Assembly: GCA_016839905.1 (NCBI GenBank)
Contig: JAEOTJ010000221.1
Location: 1 to 24,026, forward strand
Direction of reading: 5' to 3'
Source of the DNA: Promethearchaeota archaeon
GTDB taxonomy: Archaea > Asgardarchaeota > Lokiarchaeia > Sigynarchaeales > SOKP01
DNA: 24,026 nucleotides
The translations under genes were made by a program, and so were the position numbers. The notes under the pieces were generated by a model. It was not told the DNA's origin, ran no database searches, and saw nothing but the letters and a program-made list of their open reading frames with translations. This document shows positions 6,701-18,184 of the stretch, piece after piece (within the stretch, counting starts at the first letter, position 1; each line of letters opens with the position of its first letter).

Positions 6701-8716
6701 TTTGAAGAGAATGGAAAATTCTCAAATGATCTATCATATCTTGTTTATGATTTTGGAAATAAAAGCATATTTATGGTGAATAATAGTATTCCTAGACTTG
6801 GGAGTTATTATTTAGGATATTTCTGGACGAATGGCTCCTCGATAGGATGTAGAAAAAAGGAAATCTTAATAACAACTTATAATATAAGTATTGATGATTT
6901 TGAATACGATCCCAATCTCGAAGATGGAATTAATATCCTTTCAGGAAGAGTAGATAATGTTCTATCCAATTATACTTTATTAATTGCATCCGTAAATGAT
7001 ACTACGGGAATACCCTTAGAGGACTTTTATCCAATTAATAATTCTATTAGTCAATCCGAAGGGAAATTTTCCATAAATTATAAAGGAGAACCACTTGAAG
7101 TACACATGCAAACTTTCTTACAAAATGAGACCATTCTCAATCCGAATGAAACAATTAATATTAAATCATTAATCCAAAATTTAAACCCTGCTTACGATAT
7201 AAATGTGAGATTACACGTCAAATTAGTTTCTCTTGCAAATGAAGAATGGATTATTACTGAGGCATATACTCCAACAGTTCTTTTAGATAAAAAAGGTGCA
7301 TTTAATCCTTCACATGAATTCAGTGTAAACTTGACAATGCCTGAACTTCAACCTGATGATATCTGGTATGGAGTAAATAGTCCAGTAAGAAAAGCAGGTG
7401 CCAAGGTTAATATTTCTATATATATTGAGGATGAATTTGCAGGCATGTATACCACTAATTCTCAAGATGATTATTGTGTAATAATAAATAAGACCGAAGA
7501 AGAATTTGAAGGATATATCATTAAACTTAAAATTCCTCAAAATGAGGAAGGTCCTAGCTTTTTAAGAGATTTTAACCGAGAAGATTGCATATATCTTCCG
7601 AACAAGACGACATTTATTATAAATGTTTTCGATGAGAATTATGTAAGCAGCTATAATCATTATATTAAGAAATTTGGACTTCTAACCGATAGCGAATTTT
7701 CGGATATTGTTATTGATCCTGTAACTCCTCTTTATGGTAAAAGTTTTAACATTTCTTCTATATTAGCTACAGAATTCGGAGATCCTCTAAGTTATAAGAA
7801 TGTGACTCTTCAATATAATAATTCAGGAGCTTGGATGAATCTAACTCATCAGTTAACAGATATTAATGGAACCAATACATTCGAGATAAATACTTTAGAT
7901 CTTAATATTCTAGATGATACCATCGAAATAAAACTGATTTGGGCTGGTGATACGGATGTATTGAATAATTTAAAAAATATTACAATAACTATAGAAATGC
8001 AAACTAATAGTCTCTCAATTTCGGTTGATGAACAAGACCAATATGCTTTTAGAGAAACCAACTCTACGTTGAAAATTAATATAAGGAATACAGGAAACTC
8101 AAATTTAAAAATTCTTGAAATTGATTTTGATATTAATGAGAATTTAAATTATCAGATTGTATCAATGAATAATTTAATATACAATTATTTTGCTCCTGGA
8201 GGTTTACTTGAATTAATTATAGAAGTTGAAATTCCTAATGTTGAATATGACCTTTTAAACATTACAATCACAGTTAAAGCACAAAATATCCTCTCTAAAG
8301 AAAATATAACGATTGAAGAATTTATATCCATAACAATCCGCGATAAAGAACTATGGGATAGTGTATCGAATTATTTCATGCTAATTGTAATAGGTCTTAT
8401 TGCATTGATATGGATTGCGGGTTATATATATGTAAAGCGAGTAAATAAGAGAATTGAAACAATTTCAAGACCTCAAGCAGAAAGAAGACCTAGAAAAGGA
8501 AGGTATGTGAAAGTTTCGGAGTTAGAACCATCTAAGAAAGAACCTAAAACAAAACCGGTAAAGGATCTAGAAAAGGTTGAGAAACCGTTAGACAAGACCT
8601 TGAAGAAAAAAGGTATTCAAAAAGGAGTAAGTGAAGAAAAAATTGAAAAGAAAAAAGGTACAGACTTAGATTCTCTTTTAAAAGAAAAAGGATTGGATAA
8701 GAAAGAGAAAAAATAA
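3794..8716 (+). CDS. Giant membrane-anchored, sequon-rich surface protein with LamG-like domain
   Basis: A 1640-residue protein. Residues ~10-26 (KILYISIFVSCIFFSNII) form a signal peptide or anchor. The ectodomain is Asn/Ser/Thr/Tyr-rich with dozens of N-x-S/T sequons, as in archaeal S-layer or adhesin proteins. About 335-500 resembles a concanavalin/LamG-type jelly roll (GTIEFWYKTNN, W-M-H-I-R-I-D-F, K-I-Y-V-D-G, followed by YIDAIGYSWN). About 1400-1515 resembles a CARDB/NEW3-type beta-sandwich (LKINIRNTGNSNLKILEIDF). A single membrane helix follows at about 1527-1547, then a 93-residue, strongly basic cytoplasmic tail. The tail holds two related peptides, DKTLKKKGIQKG and DSLLKEKGLDKK. The start is GTG; the next Met lies far downstream, past the signal. 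Probably a surface or adhesion protein with inward contacts; the ligand is unknown. Confidence 0.8.
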   Translation: MVGRQKEFRKILYISIFVSCIFFSNIIRINNLNPPLSEKKNNDSLILDKLDNPIISNSNLNLTSYISGEGVNQTVRIFVENSSFSNDNRYNFNITSPMENMNLTYGEFNFTFDNNYTTLHSLENTNALSSDIQSYLEAAFNSDNSYSQFFYENGMNITQVDLNNLIDNDLGTNITINSTTAGLLNFTIRVNFTGTDFESAYHKAHNTPFNWINVLGLRLTLTYNLSMDANFTILMKDFNDSGAPFWRNISSTVFINSSIDKNKYINDMITNENLNLIRNPYYNLSLWSNFTGTFSFDNELGHSGTAIEFIDEHNGTQTATVIKEEDTHEYVLKIEDTSDSDYVGVYNNLSVYQPNGTIEFWYKTNNVTKPNYIDLFGNNGSIQTIFINNSQWYYIDKDNLTALIPNVNDPISNEWMHIRIDFECTDGDYSTLGEQEFKIYVDGINSGILDFRGINNNNTKFGKLGFRTNISNDGINIIQYIDAIGYSWNESYSIGDNFKRVGFINEANCSVIQFVFNRSDAQEFNVTIYEFDFNATYGFEVPITNNSQVALEFDLRGESTKVNGFYAWIRTLNRTRAEEMNTHLNITLYRANGTITRDQVDNLNIIPDKDELIDNIVLNYTLYNADEITYFEFDNITAISNLGLYNYFIVIKSNCSENIYSLVTIPEENYGDKVTDHQLRRSIDGGYNWIIVRSDEKGNTILDASSFKINVTRGYKPEDFVNGLKIDGMNIIGVSNDWKYPNSSPLQWGLGRWENYFTNPVKSNLNNLFQINLTWDTNLTYSFLFNVSYYNVKAFIEENATSSYNVTYDDIPIWTLNYTLNFNSTLFDNWNLTEFWYIYPDYYTPTNLTTPAPYKYQVLSNTTGSSIFIDNSNYRKIIVSTNIINISDYEKYNGTFQLYLTSENYITDDDMHSYINYKGDLWETNGFMFGDNISISLDLQDHDGKAPINGNATIILFYENGTKYYGHELFEENGKFSNDLSYLVYDFGNKSIFMVNNSIPRLGSYYLGYFWTNGSSIGCRKKEILITTYNISIDDFEYDPNLEDGINILSGRVDNVLSNYTLLIASVNDTTGIPLEDFYPINNSISQSEGKFSINYKGEPLEVHMQTFLQNETILNPNETINIKSLIQNLNPAYDINVRLHVKLVSLANEEWIITEAYTPTVLLDKKGAFNPSHEFSVNLTMPELQPDDIWYGVNSPVRKAGAKVNISIYIEDEFAGMYTTNSQDDYCVIINKTEEEFEGYIIKLKIPQNEEGPSFLRDFNREDCIYLPNKTTFIINVFDENYVSSYNHYIKKFGLLTDSEFSDIVIDPVTPLYGKSFNISSILATEFGDPLSYKNVTLQYNNSGAWMNLTHQLTDINGTNTFEINTLDLNILDDTIEIKLIWAGDTDVLNNLKNITITIEMQTNSLSISVDEQDQYAFRETNSTLKINIRNTGNSNLKILEIDFDINENLNYQIVSMNNLIYNYFAPGGLLELIIEVEIPNVEYDLLNITITVKAQNILSKENITIEEFISITIRDKELWDSVSNYFMLIVIGLIALIWIAGYIYVKRVNKRIETISRPQAERRPRKGRYVKVSELEPSKKEPKTKPVKDLEKVEKPLDKTLKKKGIQKGVSEEKIEKKKGTDLDSLLKEKGLDKKEKK

Positions 8717-8752
8717 ATTCTTTTTATGTATAAAACCCAACCAATTGATATT

Positions 8753-8760
8753 AAAAAAAA
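8753..8760 (-). terminator. T-run terminator for the Roadblock gene
   Basis: Eight consecutive T on the minus strand, ending 10 nt after the stop of the leftward Roadblock gene. It sits in the short convergent gap with the surface-protein gene. Archaeal termination commonly needs only such a U-tract. Confidence 0.45.
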
Positions 8761-8770
8761 GAAAATATAA

Positions 8771-9121
8771 TTATATTTTAGATATTGAAATTAAATTACG
8801 CTTAAGAAGGCCTAATGATGCTTGTCCATCTGTTCCTGCTAAACCTATTAATAGAGTCTTTGCTGAACTAGCCAAAACTGCATATCCTTTTTCTAATTCA
8901 ATAGTCGTTGTTTTAATAGATCCTTTTTCAATACTATCACCTAATGTTTTTGAATTCTTAATGAAGGTTGCGCAAGCTTTCGCAATTTTTCCATGATCCA
9001 TTTCCGTGATTGTTTGCCCTACAATCACTTTACCTGAAGGATCCGCAGCAATTAAACCTTCACATTCAGGAACAGTATCCATCAATTGTGCCAATTTTTC
9101 TTCTATTGCTTTTTTACTCAT
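8771..9121 (-). CDS. Roadblock/LC7-domain protein
   Basis: About 116 residues from the ATG at 9121 (MSKKAIEEKLAQLMD). The whole protein is one Roadblock/LC7 alpha-beta domain: helix, then strand 'EGLIAADPSGKVIVGQ', helix 'GKIAKACATFIKNSKTLG', strand 'IKTTTIELEKGYAVLAS', strand 'KTLLIGLAGTDGQASLGLLKR'. Family members (MglB, Rag/Ragulator and dynein light-chain relatives) dimerise and regulate small Ras-like GTPases. They are numerous in Asgard archaea, where their partners are mostly untested. A TTG 15 nt upstream (9136) would add five residues, but the ATG is preferred because GAGAAG lies about 10 nt before it. No small GTPase gene is in the window, so the partner must be encoded elsewhere. 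Confidence 0.88.
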   Translation of the reverse strand: MSKKAIEEKLAQLMDTVPECEGLIAADPSGKVIVGQTITEMDHGKIAKACATFIKNSKTLGDSIEKGSIKTTTIELEKGYAVLASSAKTLLIGLAGTDGQASLGLLKRNLISISKI

Positions 9122-9237
9122 TGGAATACTTCTCAATAATTTATTTTCTTATAGTTAATTGTAGACCTATAATAATATATATATTTGTATTCAGAAATAA
9201 ATTTAAACTTTTTATAAAGAATTAGATAGAATTTGGT

Positions 9238-9246
9238 AAAAAAAAA
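9238..9246 (-). terminator. T-run terminator for the methyltransferase gene
   Basis: Nine consecutive T on the minus strand, starting 10 nt beyond the methyltransferase stop codon. There is no clear hairpin. Confidence 0.4.
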
Positions 9247-9255
9247 TAATGATAC

Positions 9256-9996
9256 TTATTTTTTTCGCATAATAAAGAAAGTATATCCATAATATTCTGA
9301 ATATTTCCTAAACATTTCAATTTCTACATTAAATAACTTAAGTAGTTCAAGGGTTTCATTATTATTTTGGTATTTTTTTTTAATATTTTGAATGCTTTTC
9401 TCTAAAGGAATGTAATAATTATCCCACCAACTAGCTTCGGGAAGATTAAAATGGAATATCAAATCTAATCCTATAGAATTTATTGAAGTTATATTTCCTT
9501 CTACACTTTTCATTTCTGGATATTCACTCATCATGTAATCATTTATTTCTTTTGGAATGTTATCTTTAAACCAACATAGCTCTGAAAACACGAGATAACT
9601 TTTTTCTTTAAGAAAGATCTGCCAATCTATAAGAGCTTTTTCAAAACCATAGATATATGCCGCTCCTTCAGACCAGATAATATTAAAACTATTAATATTA
9701 AATTTCATATCAAGCATGGATTGGTTTATAGTAGTTATTCGATTAGTAAAATTCATTGTATTAATTTTTTTCCTAAGTACATCGAGATAAGGCTGATGAT
9801 TGTCTAATGCGAAGATTTTTCCAGTTGTTAATCTGGCAAGTTCTATTGTCTGCATACCATTTCCACATCCCACATCCAAAATGCAAGGTTCTGAAGGCAA
9901 TTCAGTTAGATAAGAAAATGCTTTTTTTGTTGAGACATTATCGCCGGGACCTTGTCTAGGTAAATCTTCGTTAAATACTTCGTAGATTAAATCCAA
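9256..9996 (-). CDS. Class I SAM-dependent methyltransferase
   Basis: A 246-residue Rossmann methyltransferase. Motif I is DVGCGNG (41-47), preceded by ILD; the ribose-binding acidic residue is D65 (IFALDNH). The post-I region has 'NQSMLDMKF', and the motif IV-like strand is 'FNIIWSEGAAYIYGFEKAL' (104-122). The N-terminal lead 'NEDLPRQGPGDNVSTKKAF' is typical of a subgroup of bacterial and archaeal small-molecule methyltransferases annotated only as methyltransferase-domain proteins. The Trp/Tyr-rich C-terminal part probably forms the substrate lid; the substrate is unknown. TTG is the only plausible start: the in-frame stop is 24 nt upstream and the next Met is M48 inside motif I. It is divergent from the ATC-hydrolase-like gene across a 104-nt gap, so the two may share a control region. 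Confidence 0.85.
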   Translation of the reverse strand: MDLIYEVFNEDLPRQGPGDNVSTKKAFSYLTELPSEPCILDVGCGNGMQTIELARLTTGKIFALDNHQPYLDVLRKKINTMNFTNRITTINQSMLDMKFNINSFNIIWSEGAAYIYGFEKALIDWQIFLKEKSYLVFSELCWFKDNIPKEINDYMMSEYPEMKSVEGNITSINSIGLDLIFHFNLPEASWWDNYYIPLEKSIQNIKKKYQNNNETLELLKLFNVEIEMFRKYSEYYGYTFFIMRKK

Positions 9997-10054
9997 ATTC
10001 TTACACTTTTTTATATTTTAATCTAAAAATTCAATAGATTTCTAATTACTCATA

Positions 10055-10064
10055 TTTTATAATA
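10055..10064 (+). promoter_or_regulatory. Candidate TATA box in the divergent promoter region
   Basis: ttttataata lies about 40 nt before the ATG at 10101, in the 104-nt divergent space between the methyltransferase and ATC-hydrolase-like genes. Spacing fits an archaeal TATA box with a short leader. The sequence is nearly symmetrical and could serve either direction. Confidence 0.3.
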
Positions 10065-10100
10065 CTTAAAATAAAATAAAATTCCATATATATTCATCTA

Positions 10101-10754
10101 ATGAGTATTCTTGAGAACCTTTTTCAGCAATATAAATATATTACCGAGCTTGTATTGAATAAAAATTTTAAATTAGAACATGCGAAGAGTCTGCTGGATT
10201 TTATTGATAAGGAGTATCATTCACTAATTAATTCAGATGCTACAAAGAGTGTAACCCCCAGGGATATTAACCAGAGAATGCATATAGTTACCCCTTGCTT
10301 TGTTATTGCCTTATATCGTGCTCTAAAAGATAAAATTTCACAAACAATTTCTATTGATCAAGTAAGTGATATAATGATGACCATTTTTCGAGATTTTGTT
10401 GGGTCCTTAGCAGATATGCAGAGAAATAGACTCAAGAATGCATCAGATAAATGGAAATCTTTTAAAGAAACAACCATTTTTGGAACTGAAAACACCTATA
10501 GCTCATTTGAACCCAAATTTATTCAAAATAATGAAAAAATGTTAATATTCCATCTAAATAAATGTATTTTCTTTGAAGTATTCAAGGTTCATGACGAGCA
10601 ATCAATAGCCTTAATTTTATGTAAATATGATGAAATCTTTGCTGAAGCGGTCGAAGAATGGGTCTCCTTCACGAGACCAAAGATTATCGCGGAGGGAGAT
10701 GATTTTTGTGAATTTCGTTATGAACTAAAAACCAATAATGATATGAATTTTTAA
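10101..10754 (+). CDS. L-2-amino-thiazoline-4-carboxylate (ATC) hydrolase-family protein
   Basis: This 217-residue soluble protein is helical in its first half. It carries the C-terminal signature I recognise from the ATC-hydrolase-like family: 'NKCIFFEVF' (C155), 'LILCKYDEIF' (C174, D177), an aromatic-Arg 'SFTRPKIIAEGDDFCEF' with C203. The founding enzyme opens the thiazoline ring of ATC on the bacterial route to L-cysteine. Most family members, found widely in anaerobes, have untested roles, so the family call is firmer than the reaction. It begins at an ATG at 10101 without an obvious ribosome site. It stands alone on the plus strand, flanked by divergent and convergent neighbours. Confidence 0.6.
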   Translation: MSILENLFQQYKYITELVLNKNFKLEHAKSLLDFIDKEYHSLINSDATKSVTPRDINQRMHIVTPCFVIALYRALKDKISQTISIDQVSDIMMTIFRDFVGSLADMQRNRLKNASDKWKSFKETTIFGTENTYSSFEPKFIQNNEKMLIFHLNKCIFFEVFKVHDEQSIALILCKYDEIFAEAVEEWVSFTRPKIIAEGDDFCEFRYELKTNNDMNF

Positions 10755-10839
10755 TAATAGAAACCTCTTCAAATCTATTTTGTTGTTTTAATCCTTTTTG
10801 AAATGAAGTTCATTAAAAATTTTTTATAATTATTAAAAG

Positions 10840-10869
10840 AAAAATGGTTTATTAATCTCTGAAGAGATT
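10840..10869 (-). terminator. Hairpin plus T-run downstream of TIR-LRR
   Basis: On the minus strand AATCTC-TTCA-GAGATT (10869-10854) forms a 6-bp stem with a 4-nt loop. A run of five T follows at 10844-10840, after about 10 nt. The same hairpin, with changed but still mostly pairing bases, lies after the Roadblock gene at 13066-13081. That conservation supports a real RNA structure, probably a terminator or 3'-end stabiliser. Confidence 0.5.
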
Positions 10870-10921
10870 GACCAAAACATCGAGAGCTTTATTGAGTTAT
10901 TTCAGAATTATCAATATTAGA
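10855..10921 (-). repeat. Shared 3' repeat, copy A (after TIR-LRR); Roadblock tail relic
   Basis: Copy A is in the same orientation as copy B at 13067-13144. The conserved ends are atctctgaRgagaYtgac and gagYtatttcagaat plus tatYaatattaga; the middle ~20 nt is poorly conserved, and copy B carries an extra 11 nt. Read on the minus strand out of frame with TIR-LRR, copy A encodes L-I-L-I-I-L-K-stop. That is exactly the last residues of the Roadblock protein in copy B, with only synonymous differences (ttg/tta, aaa/aag, taa/tga). It begins at the TIR-LRR stop codon. Confidence 0.7.
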
Positions 10922-12860
10922 GATATACAATCTTTGGGAGATTTGGTTGATCAAAAATAACCTTCACACCTTTTTCAATTAGCTTTTGTATGATTGGCTT
11001 AGCATTTGGGTCCAAAGGATTATTCTGGATATTCAGAACCCTCAGGTTGGGAAGTTCAAGCAGAAACTCAGGGATTTCTTTAAATTTATTACCCTTTAAA
11101 TTCAACATTATAAGTGCCTTGAGGTTCCCGAAAGATTTCGGAAGAACTGTTAATTTATTATCGATCATGCTTAATATCCGCAAGGATTCAAGCCCCCCAA
11201 AGGATTCCGGAAGTTTTAACAATCCAAGGTATTGTAAATTGAGCTCTACAAGTGATTTCAGGTTCCCAATGGATTCGGGTAGATGTGTAATACCATAATT
11301 CTCGCTTACATTTAAGTCCACAAGTAATTCTAAATTCCCGAGAGATTCTGGAAGCGATTTAAGTTGATTATATGATAGATTCAGCTTCATGAGCAAATCT
11401 TGATTACCAAAGGATTCTGGAAGACTCTCTAACGCATTTCGAGAGAGATCTAATTTCAGAAGAGAATCCAAATTACCAAAAGATTCCGGAAGAGTGGTTA
11501 AGTGATTCCTAGAAATGTCCAGTTCCTGAAGCGATTTAAGATCCCCGAAGGATTTAGGAAGATGTGTGAGGTTATTCTCATAAATATATAGTCTTTCAAG
11601 TGTTTCTAATTCTCCAAAGGATGCGGGGAGTGATTCTAAATCATTCGAATAAACCCAGAGCGTGAGTATCGATTTTAAATTACCAAAGGATTCTGGAAGG
11701 GTTTTAAAGTGATTCCGGCTTATACTACATTCTTGGAGTGATTCCATATTCCCTAAACTTTCAGGTAGAACGCTTAGTTGATTTTCCATGAAGGATAACC
11801 TTTTCACCTTTTTTAGATTTCCTATTGAGTCTGGTAGGGCTGATAGGTTATTAAACTTCATGAAAAGATCCACTAAGGAGTCTAGATTTCCTATATTTTC
11901 TGGAAGACGCGGTAAATCACAAGATGCTAACCCTAATGTTACGACCCCCTCATTTTCAACTTTTATCCCATAGTCACTCCATCCAATATTATCCTCTTTG
12001 GGTAGTTCTTTATCCAGTAATTTCTGTAATTCTTCTAATACTGTAAGTTGGTCAGGCCGTACCTTAAATTTCTCCTTTAATCGATGAGTTCTCTGCGAAT
12101 CTATTCTTACCCGTTCTTCAATTTGCCCTTCCACATAAGCTCTGCCGTTAAAGTATATTTCTTTTCCATCATAGAGAAGATTTTTCACTTCTTCGTCTGA
12201 TTCAAACGACTCCCATGAAAAATTTACTGCTATCAAGTTTTTAAGCGAATAAATCGATTTAGGAATAGAATTTAGCTTTATAGAGGTTAAATTTAGGGAA
12301 GTTACGAAGCCGTGCTCATCGACTTTAAAACAATTTTTAAGAATGTGGTTCAACTCTTTCTGAATCGCCTTTAAGACTTGTATTTCATCAATATTAACTT
12401 GTTTTGTAAAGAACGCGGATTTTTTAAATACCGAAGGTGTGCTAACGACCTCTTCTCTCCCCTTTTGAATCAGTTCATAAATATTCTCAACGATACTTGA
12501 TACTTCTTTTCCGGTCATGTTAACGCCCACATAGGGTTGAAATGTGGCTGGAACATAAGTGAAATCTTCAAAGAGAGGGATAAGGCGCTTATTCTGGAAA
12601 ACAGCCATTTTCCTCTCCTTCCCGCAGTTCTCCGACGTATTGGAGGCATCTGTGCATACAGCAATGAAAATATCAGAAATTTTGATGTTATCTTCCATAA
12701 AACTTATAATATCACCGTCTAAATAGCCGTGCCATCCTTCCCAGTAATGTACTTTCTCAATACCTTCCCGCTCCTGTAGTTCCATCGATACTTCAGCTAT
12801 TTTCAACTTTCTAGCATCCGCCATAGCATAACTGACAAAAATTGTTAAATCCATGCTCAT
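10917..12860 (-). CDS. TIR domain - leucine-rich repeat protein
   Basis: A 647-residue protein. Residues 1-~135 form a TIR domain: first strand 'LTIFVSYAMAD', the BB-loop region with 'YWEGWHGYLDGD', 'SDIFIAVCTDAS' and 'SENCGKERKMA', where E82 sits at the position of the NADase catalytic glutamate, then 'KRLIPLFED'. Residues ~185-215 are a lone LRR unit ('VTSLNLTSIKLNSIPKSIYSL'). Residues ~305-615 hold about 13 repeats of 23 residues of the LPESFGNLKSL.xLxLSxNxL type. No P-loop or NB-ARC/STAND NTPase lies between them. TIR-LRR proteins act in innate immunity and signalling; NADase activity here is inference. The ATG at 12860 has a strong GGGGAG site, and G+C looks clearly higher than in its neighbours (about 40% in sampled lines). 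It lies downstream of a Roadblock gene on the same strand, and its stop codon falls at the edge of a sequence shared with that gene. Confidence 0.9.
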   Translation of the reverse strand: MSMDLTIFVSYAMADARKLKIAEVSMELQEREGIEKVHYWEGWHGYLDGDIISFMEDNIKISDIFIAVCTDASNTSENCGKERKMAVFQNKRLIPLFEDFTYVPATFQPYVGVNMTGKEVSSIVENIYELIQKGREEVVSTPSVFKKSAFFTKQVNIDEIQVLKAIQKELNHILKNCFKVDEHGFVTSLNLTSIKLNSIPKSIYSLKNLIAVNFSWESFESDEEVKNLLYDGKEIYFNGRAYVEGQIEERVRIDSQRTHRLKEKFKVRPDQLTVLEELQKLLDKELPKEDNIGWSDYGIKVENEGVVTLGLASCDLPRLPENIGNLDSLVDLFMKFNNLSALPDSIGNLKKVKRLSFMENQLSVLPESLGNMESLQECSISRNHFKTLPESFGNLKSILTLWVYSNDLESLPASFGELETLERLYIYENNLTHLPKSFGDLKSLQELDISRNHLTTLPESFGNLDSLLKLDLSRNALESLPESFGNQDLLMKLNLSYNQLKSLPESLGNLELLVDLNVSENYGITHLPESIGNLKSLVELNLQYLGLLKLPESFGGLESLRILSMIDNKLTVLPKSFGNLKALIMLNLKGNKFKEIPEFLLELPNLRVLNIQNNPLDPNAKPIIQKLIEKGVKVIFDQPNLPKIVYL

Positions 12861-12868
12861 CTAATTCT

Positions 12869-12874
12869 CTCCCC
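12869..12874 (-). promoter_or_regulatory. Strong Shine-Dalgarno site for TIR-LRR
   Basis: GGGGAG lies 8 nt before the ATG at 12860, which supports that start. Such a site is missing before most other genes of the window, and this is one reason to think the TIR-LRR block has a different history. Confidence 0.7.
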
Positions 12875-13049
12875 AATCTTTTACATTACTAATTTTAAAT
12901 GGGTCAAATTTAATATTATAAGGTAATTTTTAAATGTTTTTTTTACAATCACCTTTAATTTGATAATTATTTTTAATCTTTCAATATCTTTTTTATTCAT
13001 AACTGAGAAGAAGAGAGTAAAAAATTAAAGTGTTAATAATGATTAAAAT

Positions 13050-13081
13050 AAAAAAAGGGAGTGTTGATCTCTGAGGAGACT
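13050..13081 (-). terminator. Hairpin plus T-run downstream of the second Roadblock gene
   Basis: On the minus strand GTCTC-CTCA-GAGAT can form a 5-bp stem, with one G-U pair in place of the A-U pair of the copy at 10854-10869. Seven T follow at 13056-13050. It lies 39 nt beyond the Roadblock stop codon and would end that transcript before TIR-LRR. Confidence 0.5.
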
Positions 13082-13144
13082 GACTATGATGCTTGAAACC
13101 TTGTGGAGCTATTTCAGAATCACTTCAGAATTATTAATATTAGA
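13067..13144 (-). repeat. Shared 3' repeat, copy B (end of the second Roadblock gene)
   Basis: This is the partner of copy A at 10855-10921. It covers the last Roadblock codons (L-I-L-I-I-L-K-stop) and about 50 nt of 3' flank. Relative to copy A it contains an extra 11 nt that repeats the ttctgaa motif. The two copies bracket the TIR-LRR gene as direct repeats. Confidence 0.7.
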
Positions 13145-13458
13145 TTTTCTTCGAGAGCCACCATTACTTCCCCCTTGCTCGTCTCAAGCCTAATAAACTT
13201 TAATGCCCCCTCCTTAAGCGCATCAACTACTTGCCTGGATTTCCCAATAAGGGATGTTATATAGGCAGAAACTTCTTCAGTTTGATCAGTAGGTAAATTT
13301 GCCTTGATCGGGAGCCCGCTTGAATCACAAATGATAACTCCCCTTACACCTTCTTTCTCCTCGAACTGACGAATAATTTTTTGAACTTCTTTGACATCTA
13401 TCGTTGTTATCTCACACCTCCTTTCCACATTCTTTTTTTCCATTAATTTCATTAACAT
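13120..13458 (-). CDS. Roadblock/LC7-domain protein next to TIR-LRR
   Basis: 112 residues from the ATG at 13458. The Roadblock fold covers about residue 22 to the end: helix 'EVQKIIRQFEEKEG', strand 'VRGVIICDSSGLPIKANLP', helix 'EEVSAYITSLIGKSRQVVDAL', strand 'LKFIRLETSKGEVMVAL', ending 'ENLILIILK'. This is a MglB-like small protein expected to dimerise and act on a Ras-like GTPase. The first ~17 residues (Lys/Arg/Met-rich) look unlike the family. A near-perfect ribosome site AAAGGAGGTG lies inside them, six bases before an ATA codon where the family domain would naturally start (TTIDVKEVQ); see findings. It is upstream of TIR-LRR on the same strand with a 259-nt gap and a terminator-like hairpin between, so co-transcription is uncertain. 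G+C is higher than in flanking genes. Confidence 0.82.
   Translation of the reverse strand: MLMKLMEKKNVERRCEITTIDVKEVQKIIRQFEEKEGVRGVIICDSSGLPIKANLPTDQTEEVSAYITSLIGKSRQVVDALKEGALKFIRLETSKGEVMVALEENLILIILK
13415..13424 (-). promoter_or_regulatory. Near-perfect Shine-Dalgarno inside the Roadblock reading frame
   Basis: AAAGGAGGTG is fully complementary to the usual archaeal 16S 3' end. With six bases of spacing it points at codon ATA (13410-13408), which would begin the conserved domain. No ATG, GTG or TTG is suitably placed in that frame. The upstream ATG at 13458 has no comparable site. Confidence 0.6.
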
Positions 13459-13669
13459 GCATTATTTCATTTAACCTCAGAATAATATTATATTCTTTAC
13501 TTTAATAATATAAATAGATTAAGGATATAAAAAAATATCTTTTTATTTAATTCTTAACAATTACAAAATCAATTAAACCTTCATTTGAAAATCTCATTTT
13601 ATTAGGTTTTAATTTAATATACTGGAAAAGATTAAAGGAAAAAGCTTGTTATTTAAATAAACATATACT

Positions 13670-16600
13670 TTAAGTATCTTCGGATTTTCTAAGTTCTATT
13701 TTCTTTTTATGCTTACTGTATATGATTTTAACGACAATACCAGCACAAGCACTAATTATGCCGCCTATCGCTGCTTGAATAACCCAAAAATATCCATCCT
13801 CTTCAGGAGTATCATCTGAATCTTCTTCAACATTTTTTATTATGACAACATTATCCATTCCTACATTACCAGCAGTATCATTTACATAGAATCTAATTGT
13901 CCACTGACCATTTGATAATGCAGTCCAACCATCTAAATCAATTGAGTCATTGTTAGAAAAGAAGTACTTCTTACCATTTAATTCTAACGTGTACCACATC
14001 AGATGAGCATTTGTATCATTGATAAATACATTAAAAGTAGGACTAGGATCATTTTTCTTAAAGACTTCATTTTCTATTGGTAAAAGTACTTCAATTGTTG
14101 GAACATAATTATCTTTGAAAAAATTAACTGAACTAGAACGTAATTGACCTATAGAATCGTTTGCGTAAAAAGTTACGGTATTTGAACCATTTTGTAAAGA
14201 ATTCCACCAATCTGATCTGAAGGTTGTATTAGTTACAAATGTTTGGTTAGGACCTCCATTAAAAGAATACCACATTGTATGAACATTTGTATCATTCACA
14301 AAAATGTTAAATAGTGGCGCATTTATTCCTATTTCTTGACCGGGTGTTGGAGAATATATAGTAATCTTTGGGCTATAATTTTCTTTAACAACCGTTATAT
14401 TTTCAGAATTAACATTTCCAAAAGTGTCGTTTGCATAGAAAGTTATATTGACATTTCCTTCCGGTAAAACACTCCACCAATCTTGTCTAAAAGTCGTATT
14501 AGTAATGAAAGTTTGATTTGCCCCATTATTAAGAGAATACCACATTTCACTTATCCCGTTAGCTTCAATTAGCGTAATATTAAAACTTGGAGCTGTTATA
14601 TTAACTAATTGAAAAAGTGTGGGTTGATAAATAACTATTAGTGGACCTTGCACATCTAAATAGACTTGAACATTTTTACTAACCACATTTCCATCCGTAT
14701 CATTTGCGTAAAAGGTAATTTTTACAGTTCCATTTGCCAAATTATTCCATTCTGTTGTATCAAATGTACCATTATCATTGAATAAAACATTGGTTCCATC
14801 ATTTAGGGTATACCACTTATCATCTAGATTATCATCTGTAATTTCTACGTTGAATTTTGGAGTAGTTTTATTAAATTGCTTCCAAGCAGTCGGTGAATTG
14901 ATAATTATTAAGGGTGTTCGAAAATATATAATAGGTATATAATCTTTGCTTCCAGTTGATCCCGAAACATTATATGGAGCATCTCCAATCCCGTATGGTG
15001 GAAGGCTGTCTAATCCCTCATAATAATACCAATAATTACCTATACTACTATTCCAATTGTTAAACTGCCCTGCACTATCTGTATTATTTTTTGCGAAAAT
15101 CTCATTATTATAAATATCACAATACTCGGAATTTTGTAAATAAAAACCGTATCCTTGTTCATCTAAGCCGGGAAGAGAATTAGTTCCGTTATTAACAAGT
15201 ATACTACCAATTCCACCTAAACCACCTAATCCACCATTTCCACCAGTTGAATTATACAATTTATTTTGAATACTCAATGATTTTTTTGAAGAAAAAATAT
15301 AAATAAATATTCCACGACCTCCATTACCAGATATTCCTCCATTTCCTCCATATGCATTTTCGAAACTATCAGATCCACAATCTCCCCCATTACCACAGTC
15401 AGCACCTTTTCCTCCAGTAATATTTTTTAATAAATTTTTATAAATAGTACTAGAATTAGAAAGTGAATAAATTATTCCCCATGCATTACCTCCACTTCCA
15501 CCATCACCACCATTACCTCCATCACCAGCCCAAGCCCATGCTAGTTGAAGATTTCTCCCTCCTTTCCCTCCATCAGATCCGTTTGAACCAATTCCTCCAT
15601 AAAGATAAGTAATATTATTCCAAGAATTTGTAATATTTTTAGAATTCTCAAAACTAATGCCTATGCAATTGCCACCATCTCCTCCATTTCCGCCATTCCC
15701 ACCAAGTGCGAACCCCGGAGGATGATTGTCCCCACCAGAACCCGCTATACCCGAGATCTTCCCATTCCCTCCTGTTAAATTAAAAATAAAATTCATTTTA
15801 ATGGTTAAATTACAGGATTTTTTGAAATATAAACCATAAGAATCTCCTCCATCTCCAGAATCTCCGCCATCTCCGCCATCTCCGCCATAACCGAAGGTAG
15901 CAGCATGACTCCCACTCTTTCCATTACCACCATTACCTCCATCCCCTCCGAACAATTCAATTAAAACATTAGAAACAAATGTTCCATTATTAATATTAAA
16001 TAAGAAATATCCATAAGTATTTCCCCCAGAACCTCCACTACTTCCTGAGCCACCATCTCTTCCATTACCGTTCGTAGATACCAGAGTAAGATATCCACCA
16101 TTACCACCATTTCCTCCATCACCACCATTTCCAGCAAATAAGTTAGTTAAGATATTTAAATAATCCAGAGTAAAATTGACATTTAAAAAATAGAATCCTA
16201 TAATATCTCCACCGTTACCTCCCTTACTACCATTTCCTCCAAGACCCGGATAGTTTGTAAAGGTAGCTCCCATGTGAATGCCATTTCCTCCTTTACCTCC
16301 ATCTCCCCCATTACCACCTTTACCTCCATAAATGAACTCTAGATAATTCCCCCTATTTGTAATATTAATTGAATTTTTAACCATAACAAAATAATGACTC
16401 CCTCCATTTCCACCATCTCCGCCTTTCCCGCCATCACCTCCATCACCATATTCATTAGCTATAATACTGCTCTCTCCCCCATTACCTCCATTACCCCCAT
16501 TTCCTCCATAACCGCCATAAAGATAAGATAAATTATTAAATTCTACAGAGATATTTATACAATTAAAGAATGAAAATCCTTCTGTAAAACCACCATTATT

Positions 16601-17941
16601 GCCATTTCCTCCTATTCCTCCATCCCCCCCATGCCCATCCTCCGTATTACAGTCCCCACCTTTCCCTCCATTTCCTCCATTACCACCATTTTTTCCAGAA
16701 ATATTGAATAAAATATTGTACTTTAAGTCTATAAATTCTGAGTTATTAGATTCTAATACAATTGCTGATCCTCCATTTGAACCCATCCCTCCAATACCGC
16801 CATCACCTCCAGTATGTTGTTCAATTACGACATTGTACTCGTTTCCACCTTCACCTCCATCCCCTCCATGTCCACCAGTACCACCTTCAATATATGAAAA
16901 ACTTGTGTTTAAAATGGAAATATTATATACTTGTGTAAATAATAACCCTTTACTATTACCTCCTCTTCCCCCAATGCCTCCATTCCCTCCATTACCCCCA
17001 CTTCCAGCAACAGTAATAAAGTCTCCGCCGTTTCCCCCGGAACTCCCATTATTTCCATTGCCACCAGAAATATTAATAATATTATTTTTTAAGATAATTA
17101 GATGATTTGATTCAGAGATGAAAATACCGATTGCATTACCTCCATTACCCCCATTTCCACCATCCCCGCCTTTAGCCCCTATGTCGGTCGTGGCAGCGTT
17201 GCCTCCATTACCACCTCTGCCACCAACACCACCTGCAATATCTGTTATGTTGTTAATAGATAAACAGAGATTATTTGTAGTATTAATATAAATGCCATAA
17301 GCATCAGTGCCATTTCCTCCAAATCCTCCCTTATTTCCAGGATCGTTATTAGAACCAGCTCCTCCGTTTCCCCCATTTCCCCCTGTGATAAAGTAAATTG
17401 CATTATCCGTAATATTTACTGTCGTTGAATTGCTTATAATAATCCCATATGTTTTAGATAATCCACTTGTGCCATTGGAATCAGCAGCTCCGCTCGAACC
17501 ATCTTCTCCATTCATATTATATATTCTACAATTTTTAAATTCTACATTTGTAGCATTTTGAATTTTAATTCCAATATTTCCATCTGAGAGAGAACAATTC
17601 TTAATTACAAAATGTTTAGTAGTATTTTCAATATGGATACAAACACCTGATGAAGGATTAGTAATATTCCAATTAGAAATAATATAAGGTGTTCCTTGAG
17701 AACCGTCTCCACTTCTCACACCATTTGCTAATACAAAAGCACTATCATTATAAATCTTAATCTCTCCACGAATCTCCGCGATCTTCAAATTTCTTCTATC
17801 TTCAATAATTTCAGGTTTAGTATTTTGTTTTCCTTTTTTTATAATCAAGTTAAAATTATTTAGAATTGATAAGTTAAAGAAAATTACTAAAATTAAAATG
17901 AAAATCCCTAATTTCCTACAATTAATATATCTTTTTGGCAT
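13670..17941 (-). CDS. Giant Gly-rich (GGX) beta-helix surface protein with Ig-like repeats and membrane anchor
   Basis: About 1423 residues. A signal peptide or anchor ([13 protein letters not shown]) is followed by an entry region '[14 protein letters not shown]' and beta-helix coils. From about residue 185 to 910 twelve units alternate a ~20-residue coil (e.g. [17 protein letters not shown]) with a ~45-residue GGX-rich insertion (GGNGG, GGDGG). A canonical NosD-type motif ([12 protein letters not shown], then GIGDAPYNV) closes the helix near 965-990. Four Ig-like repeats of ~88 residues follow (about 1015-1370), each with 'MWYSLNNG' and '[11 protein letters not shown]' motifs. One membrane helix (about 1385-1410) and a short basic tail end the protein. 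Sequons are common. It is likely a long, glycosylated cell-surface stalk or adhesin. ATG 17941 is chosen over GTG 17950 because GTGAT precedes it closely and the signal begins MPKRYIN. Confidence 0.85.
15204..17383 (-). repeat. Twelve-unit coil + GGX protein-repeat block
   Basis: Coding-level repeats of about 60-70 residues: one beta-helix coil plus two Gly-rich arms split by a variable, often charged or aromatic turn (e.g. [30 protein letters not shown]). Units begin after ITGG, IAGG, ISGG, IEGG, ISGK, LYGG, IYGG, LFAG, LFGG, LTGG, LYGG and ITGG, with a shorter thirteenth arm after STGG. Copies differ at the DNA level, so they are old or selected rather than recent expansions. The plus strand correspondingly shows many ccaccatt/cctccatt words. 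Confidence 0.85.
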
Positions 17942-18184
17942 ACCTATCACTTATTTCTTTAATATATGTTAAAGGACTATATAGCTTTAGCTCTCTTTAA
18001 TTTTTTTTATTGATTTTGTAATAAATTATTATTTGTTTAATAATTTGTCATTTTTTATTAATTCTACTTATATCAAGATTATATCATTTGGATATTATCA
18101 CGATTAAAAATTGTTTAAAATTATTAATCTTCTATATCTTAGGTATTTTTTTTAATAAAATAGAAGAAATAAATTGAATTTAAT

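Follow-up and report, generated by a model that had tools for sequence, protein, structure and literature searches.

The window, as we call the whole 24,026-nucleotide stretch of Asgard archaeal DNA analysed here, carries an immune-receptor-like TIR-LRR gene between two neighbouring Roadblock genes, Robl1 and Robl2. On the minus strand the order is Robl1, TIR-LRR, methyltransferase, Robl2, and an ATC-hydrolase-like gene lies on the plus strand. Robl1 (13120–13458, minus strand; Robl_LC7 E 2e-16) is a 112-aa ORF for a Roadblock/LC7 protein with the C-terminus LILIILK-stop, and Robl2 (8771–9136, minus strand; Robl_LC7 E 2.1e-7) is a second Roadblock/LC7 gene that is syntenic in relatives; the domain scores above its cut-off in both. 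The two genes are 3,983 nt apart, a distance that holds three extra genes: the 647-aa TIR-LRR protein (10917–12860, minus strand; TIR_2 E 7.4e-11, LRR_14 E 2.7e-42), the ATC_hydrolase-like protein (10101–10754, plus strand; PF14196 E 1.4e-16) and the methyltransferase (9256–9996, minus strand; Methyltransf_25 E 9.8e-12). Neither a tRNA nor an Rfam family at gathering scores was found in the window.

Robl1 itself departs from its family in one respect. LILIILK is the C-terminus of 95 of the 120 listed homologues (the best 120 of 233 found), and 96 of the same 120 are 94 aa long, as against the 112-aa ORF in the window. At 13402–13404 (minus strand) Robl1 has ACG where three relatives (L018, L001 and L002) have ATG before I-D, so the ORF must begin either at a non-standard codon or at a start farther upstream, which would lengthen it by 18 residues; the sequence AGGAGGTG stands at 13415–13422 (minus strand), shortly before this ACG codon. 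Third-position GC content is 0.38 in Robl1 and 0.35 in TIR-LRR, higher than in the 12 other genes measured (0.17–0.275). We rejected a foreign origin of Robl1 on this ground, because the values in L018 (0.40) and L002 (0.35) are similar. Upstream of Robl1, 13670–17950 encodes a large, glycine-rich protein with Ig-like domains, predicted to be a surface protein, for which L001–L019 gave no relative at E<=1e-15 (weaker hits were filtered out) and which may be another extra gene at the locus. The intervening stretch 13459–13669 resembles 9997–10100, the 104-bp spacer out of which the ATC-like and methyltransferase genes diverge, with a score of 191 against a maximum of 187 in 200 shuffles; this was the sole pair among 15 spacer pairs to beat all shuffles, and it may be chance in A/T-rich DNA.

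We compared the locus with its counterparts in other genomes, none of them from the window's own genus. A Robl1 scan of genome contigs gave 19 loci (L001–L019), and a Robl1 search of 79 genomes from the order of genome G007 gave matches at E<=1e-22 in 62, with one match in 61 genomes and two in a single genome, G053. Thirty of the 63 places from the order search were fetched, 12 of which duplicated earlier loci, for a total of 37 distinct loci. An empty site, which the preliminary description had proposed to seek in relatives lacking TIR-LRR, was found: Robl2 lies downstream of Robl1 in the same orientation in 24 of the 37 loci, and in 20 of these 24 the gap between them is 128–350 bp. The window thus keeps the order and strand of the Lokiarchaeota Robl1-Robl2 pair and differs from it in the distance of 3,983 nt. 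No such empty site exists in 13 of the 37 loci; Robl2 lies on the other side of Robl1 in opposite orientation in 11, L009 is rearranged and L019 ends within Robl1. Among the matches listed, the spacers of L001–L019 contained no relative of TIR-LRR, methyltransferase or ATC at E<=1e-5, nor did 74 loci contain a relative of methyltransferase or ATC at E<=1e-8. Beyond the extra genes the window retains the Robl2 upstream region (9137–9214, minus strand), which is conserved in the Robl1-Robl2 spacers of the closest relatives (blastn E 9.7e-10 in L018, 1.2e-8 in L001 and 4.1e-8 in L002). Both sides of the insert are therefore one chromosomal locus and, given the synteny, the extra genes sit inside a Robl1-Robl2 spacer. 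Four of the 24 loci have enlarged spacers: 536 bp in L011, 655 bp in L064, 883 bp in L071 and 2802 bp in L010. In L010, another Lokiarchaeota genome, 10037–12839 places 2.8 kb with other ORFs between the two genes, and the Robl1-Robl2 spacer may be an insertion hotspot.

Direct repeats had been described on both sides of TIR-LRR, at 10855–10921 and 13067–13144. They are present there, although the similarity runs farther in both copies, as far as their T-runs. Copy 1 (13040–13144, minus strand) comprises the last seven Robl1 codons, the stop and the 3' flank up to its T-run, and copy 2 (10830–10921, minus strand) comprises LILIILK-stop at 10920–10897, a related 3' flank and a T-run; the numbers are labels by place, and either copy could be the original. 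Aligned over the full stretch the copies score 223, with 73 identical among 106 columns, 15 gap columns, 80% identity in the ungapped columns and a longest exact block of 11. The local score between 10840–10930 and 13050–13160 is 203, which none of 1000 dinucleotide-shuffled pairs reached (maximum 130); shuffling a 4.6 kb region 200 times gave a maximum of 145, and 60 whole-window shuffles gave one of 156. The repeat therefore scores better than shuffled A/T-rich sequence, a check proposed at the outset, and it is real. When the 3' ends of the window's genes were compared in 120 pairs, TIR-LRR/Robl1 ranked first, at 180 against 151. The coding part matches in 22 of 25 bases, as against 18 at the next best place in the window and 20 (at two places) in the loci fetched by then.

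The flank had been called the same in both copies; the two flanks are related but not the same, with 51 of 79 columns identical, 13 gaps and a longest block of 8. A shorter cut of the flank alone scored 108, and none of 2000 single-base-shuffled pairs was as high (maximum 94). The copy 2 flank scores 117 against the copy 1 region yet up to 100 at unrelated places in the window, and the copy 1 flank scores 109 against copy 2 yet up to 91 at unrelated places. By itself the flank is only moderately distinctive within the window, and the case for the repeat rests on codons and flank jointly. At the Robl1 stop (about 13131–13109) copy 1 carries a tandem duplication of 11 bp; once this is removed, the copies align with no gap and agree at 23 of the first 25 bases and 54 of the first 76. 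Past the T-run the observed similarity was equalled by 27 of 300 shuffles.

A junction of two genomes at a repeat during assembly is scarcely credible as the source of this arrangement: in relatives a single locus is syntenic with the DNA on either side of the insert, and no exact block common to the copies exceeds 11 bases. An exact block of this size is too short for the usual k-mer join in assembly.

The origin of the repeat can be read from its coding part. As the preliminary description had it, 10920–10897 (minus strand) encodes LILIILK-stop out of frame with TIR-LRR and differs from the Robl1 codons only synonymously (in L, K and stop codons); because LILIILK is the usual end of Robl1, the copy derives from Robl1. 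It is very improbable that the repeat instead represents a plus-strand gene's 3' end, or is a small mobile repeat lying behind two unrelated genes. In copy 2 a plus-strand frame does read KNGLLISEEIDQNIESFIELFQNYQY-stop, but the LILIILK-stop part came from Robl1, the mismatches fall 8, 4 and 7 times at positions 1, 2 and 3 over 70 bases with no third-position excess, and the best tblastn match of the peptide on the fetched loci, among the matches listed, had an E-value of 0.6. On the strength of the tblastn result and the codon positions of the mismatches we rejected a plus-strand coding origin. A mobile repeat is opposed by the window, which has no third copy scoring as high; none was found near the Robl2 or methyltransferase end. 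The same 3' sequence after unrelated genes, which had been put forward as a counter-indication, was likewise sought: the 75-base flank gave short weak matches in 14 of the 79 order genomes (best E 0.00128), which we took as chance.

Two histories had been offered for this arrangement: a second Roadblock gene replaced up to its last codons by TIR-LRR, or entry of TIR-LRR, accompanied by a duplication, at the 3' end of a Roadblock gene. The second has the better support, as relatives have Robl1 followed by Robl2 across a short spacer and the copy is closer to the window's own Robl1 end and flank than to their counterparts in 36 relatives; the first has little positive support. If Robl1 had been duplicated in tandem and TIR-LRR had then replaced the second gene except for its last seven codons and 3' flank, the copy would hold codons, stop and flank in their proper order, with no changes other than synonymous ones, as it does; in addition, one of the 62 genomes, G053, has two Robl1-like matches. 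Against such a history stand the 61 of 62 matching genomes with a single Robl1, and this copy number accords more readily with insertion and tail duplication than with the loss of a second Roadblock gene. No Robl1 similarity was detectable upstream of the seven codons, leftward of TCTAATATT and in the 34 nt before copy 2, where 208 of 300 shuffles were as good. The regions upstream of TIR-LRR and Robl1 are not significantly similar either (31 of 200 shuffles as good), a comparison that also led us to reject a promoter common to the two genes. We regard a replaced second gene as rather unlikely.

Next, we turned to the TIR-LRR protein and its altered end. We aligned it with nine homologues (47–85% identity) picked from 120 listed; P0010, a shorter protein, was left out. 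Like other Asgard TIR-domain LRR proteins it consists of TIR_2 (43 bits against a cut-off of 28) followed by LRRs, and its homologues are named in Helarchaeota and Promethearchaeota records. C79 and E82 lie in the motif SENCGKE, E82 being invariant and C79 nearly so among the 10 aligned proteins, and they fit what we take to be the spacing in catalytic TIRs, a glutamate three residues after a cysteine. Between TIR and LRRs no NTPase Pfam family was found at E<=0.001, so we do not class the protein as an NLR/STAND protein. PADLOC gave it only weak matches (MTase_II, E 5e-4).

The eight close homologues (P0002–P0009; lengths 623–636) have a C-terminal K or R right after KVI or its equivalent, and the C-terminus of P0011 (47% identity) differs from these. 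In the 647-residue window protein FDQPNLPKIVYL replaces the homologues' last residue, so that, unlike other Asgard TIR-LRR proteins, it carries an 11-residue read-through tail (FDQPNLPKIVYL-stop, 10917–10955, minus strand). The tail is predicted to be disordered, with pLDDT below 50 for residues 639–647 in a model built from 10 sequences (mean pLDDT 87.3). TIR-LRR had been said to end exactly where the copy begins, which is not the case: the last codon that it has in common with the homologues is at 10958–10956, and 34 nt separate it from copy 2. The stop codon at 10919–10917 does, as had been claimed, come from the repeat; it falls within copy 2 and is the first in-frame stop, supplied through read-through after loss of the gene's own stop and not by an exact gene/copy junction. 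The gene may still yield a working protein, perhaps an immune receptor of the NADase type. An Asgard defence paper lists 'Rst2TM TIR-NLR' among 22 systems commoner in Asgard genomes (PMC11291487); among open-licence papers we found one combining Asgard archaea, the TIR domain and leucine-rich repeats (PMC11249213) and none combining Asgard, roadblock and TIR domain.

For the age of the duplication we compared the Robl1 ends and flanks of 36 relatives, dropping the incomplete L019. Over end and flank, the best scores against relatives were 125 for copy 1 and 143 for copy 2, while the two copies scored 223 against each other; over flanks alone the maxima were 82 and 112, and the mutual score 137. 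With mutual scores so far above those of relatives, the duplication probably arose in the window's own lineage once it had separated from the sampled relatives, although the fast divergence of A/T-rich flanks keeps this short of proof.

The three extra genes differ in their distribution. Only one of 227 phylum genomes matches the TIR part (residues 1–300) at E<=1e-50, and three of 79 order genomes do so at E<=1e-30. The closest TIR-LRR homologues, P0002 and P0003, have 84–85% identity; among the order genomes the closest TIR match is in G057 (69%), on a different contig from that genome's Robl1. The G057 orthologue ends KVNK-stop and adjoins a 336-aa ORF that we take for a transporter. Likeness between its upstream region and that of the window's TIR-LRR was judged unspecific: 1 of 500 shuffles was as good for 12990–13050 and 12 of 500 for the whole region, and control comparisons with unrelated spacers gave 17, 308 and 4 of 500. 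The methyltransferase has matches in 24 of 227 genomes at E<=1e-40 (best 80%), among them G002, with the match on contig C8 and Robl1 on C165. Its flanks were read at 15 of 25 places; in the nearest of these, likeness to the window hardly goes beyond a short upstream stretch, and the stretch that the methyltransferase retains also occurs in L111 and L112. The ATC-like gene is matched in 19 of 227 phylum genomes at E<=1e-20 with at most 33% identity. PADLOC assigned mad2 to the methyltransferase (E 1.5e-12) and nothing to ATC. These differing distributions suggest more than one insertion at the locus; furthermore, copy 2 is followed by the ATC and methyltransferase genes and not by native spacer, so at least one further event is needed. 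A search of viral contigs returned neither TIR-LRR nor Robl1.

Taking the observed duplication, the empty site in relatives, the extra genes and the altered TIR-LRR end together, we consider it reasonably probable that foreign genes entered the spacer between the two Roadblock genes in the window's lineage, and that a duplicated Robl1 tail came with them. TIR-LRR would have entered directly downstream of Robl1 in an event that left two copies of the Robl1 tail, each with the last seven codons, the stop and the 3' flank with its T-run. One copy would complete Robl1 and the other would stand behind TIR-LRR, which, having lost its own stop, would read through 34 nt into this second copy and end at the first in-frame stop there. 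We infer that duplication of the tail accompanied the insertion, the most likely route being repair of a break by copying the neighbouring gene tail. The copied T-run could also end the TIR-LRR transcript and may terminate transcription; hairpins there were not better than chance (z -0.32 and -0.61), and 8500–14000 contained 0 terminator-like sites.

Scars of this type are already known, and the cargo gene is the interesting part. In a Thaumarchaeota survey, gene 3' ends serve 14 of 68 mapped elements, and one element supplied a new stop codon (PMC6563490). Like the elements described there, which lie in the 3'-distal regions of archaeal protein-coding genes, the window has an insert at a conserved gene end, flanking direct repeats, a retained reading frame and an empty site in relatives; unlike them, it has no integrase, no exact core, one gene between the repeats and further genes past the distal copy (PMC6563490). 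The Robl1 3'-end repeat flanks TIR-LRR only, and the ATC and methyltransferase genes fall beyond copy 2. Instead of an exact core there is a longest exact block of 11 in 106 columns, which erosion over time could explain. Among the 17 window proteins we found no recombinase family at E<=0.001 and no transposase. A search for terminal inverted repeats of at least 20 nt gave as its nearest pair 10813–10837/12909–12933, which is 72% complementary, A/T-rich and off the repeat edges. With neither integrase nor exact core, we do not claim membership among site-specifically integrated elements. Among the open-licence papers listed, none was pertinent to gene insertion with duplicated gene ends.

We nevertheless weighed whether a small element had integrated site-specifically into the 3' end of Robl1, with a recombinase acting from elsewhere, the two copies as attL and attR, and the element's own copy restoring the Robl1 frame. 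The geometry fits, enlarged Robl1-Robl2 spacers occur at four other loci, and in L010 the strongest match to its Robl1 end apart from that end itself (84/125) falls inside such a spacer. However, the window proteins include no integrase, the repeat is imperfect, scores of 82 at unrelated places in L005 and L016 make the L010 match unconvincing, and a repeat search of the four enlarged spacers gave no matching pair among the matches listed. This route strikes us as unlikely. A broader version, in which the Robl1 end is an Asgard landing site where an unseen recombinase inserts small immune-gene cassettes that restore the Roadblock tail and take stop and terminator from the displaced copy, we offer as a quite unlikely, speculative idea.

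Insertion into the spacer with a duplicated Robl1 tail, the reading we prefer, would give a two-sided view of an immune-like TIR-LRR gene entering an Asgard chromosome: it would have come to lie beside a Roadblock gene that is conserved and usually present once, leaving that gene in place, and the newcomer's own end would have been rewritten by the copied tail. If landing places of this kind recur, Asgard defence genes could be sought there.
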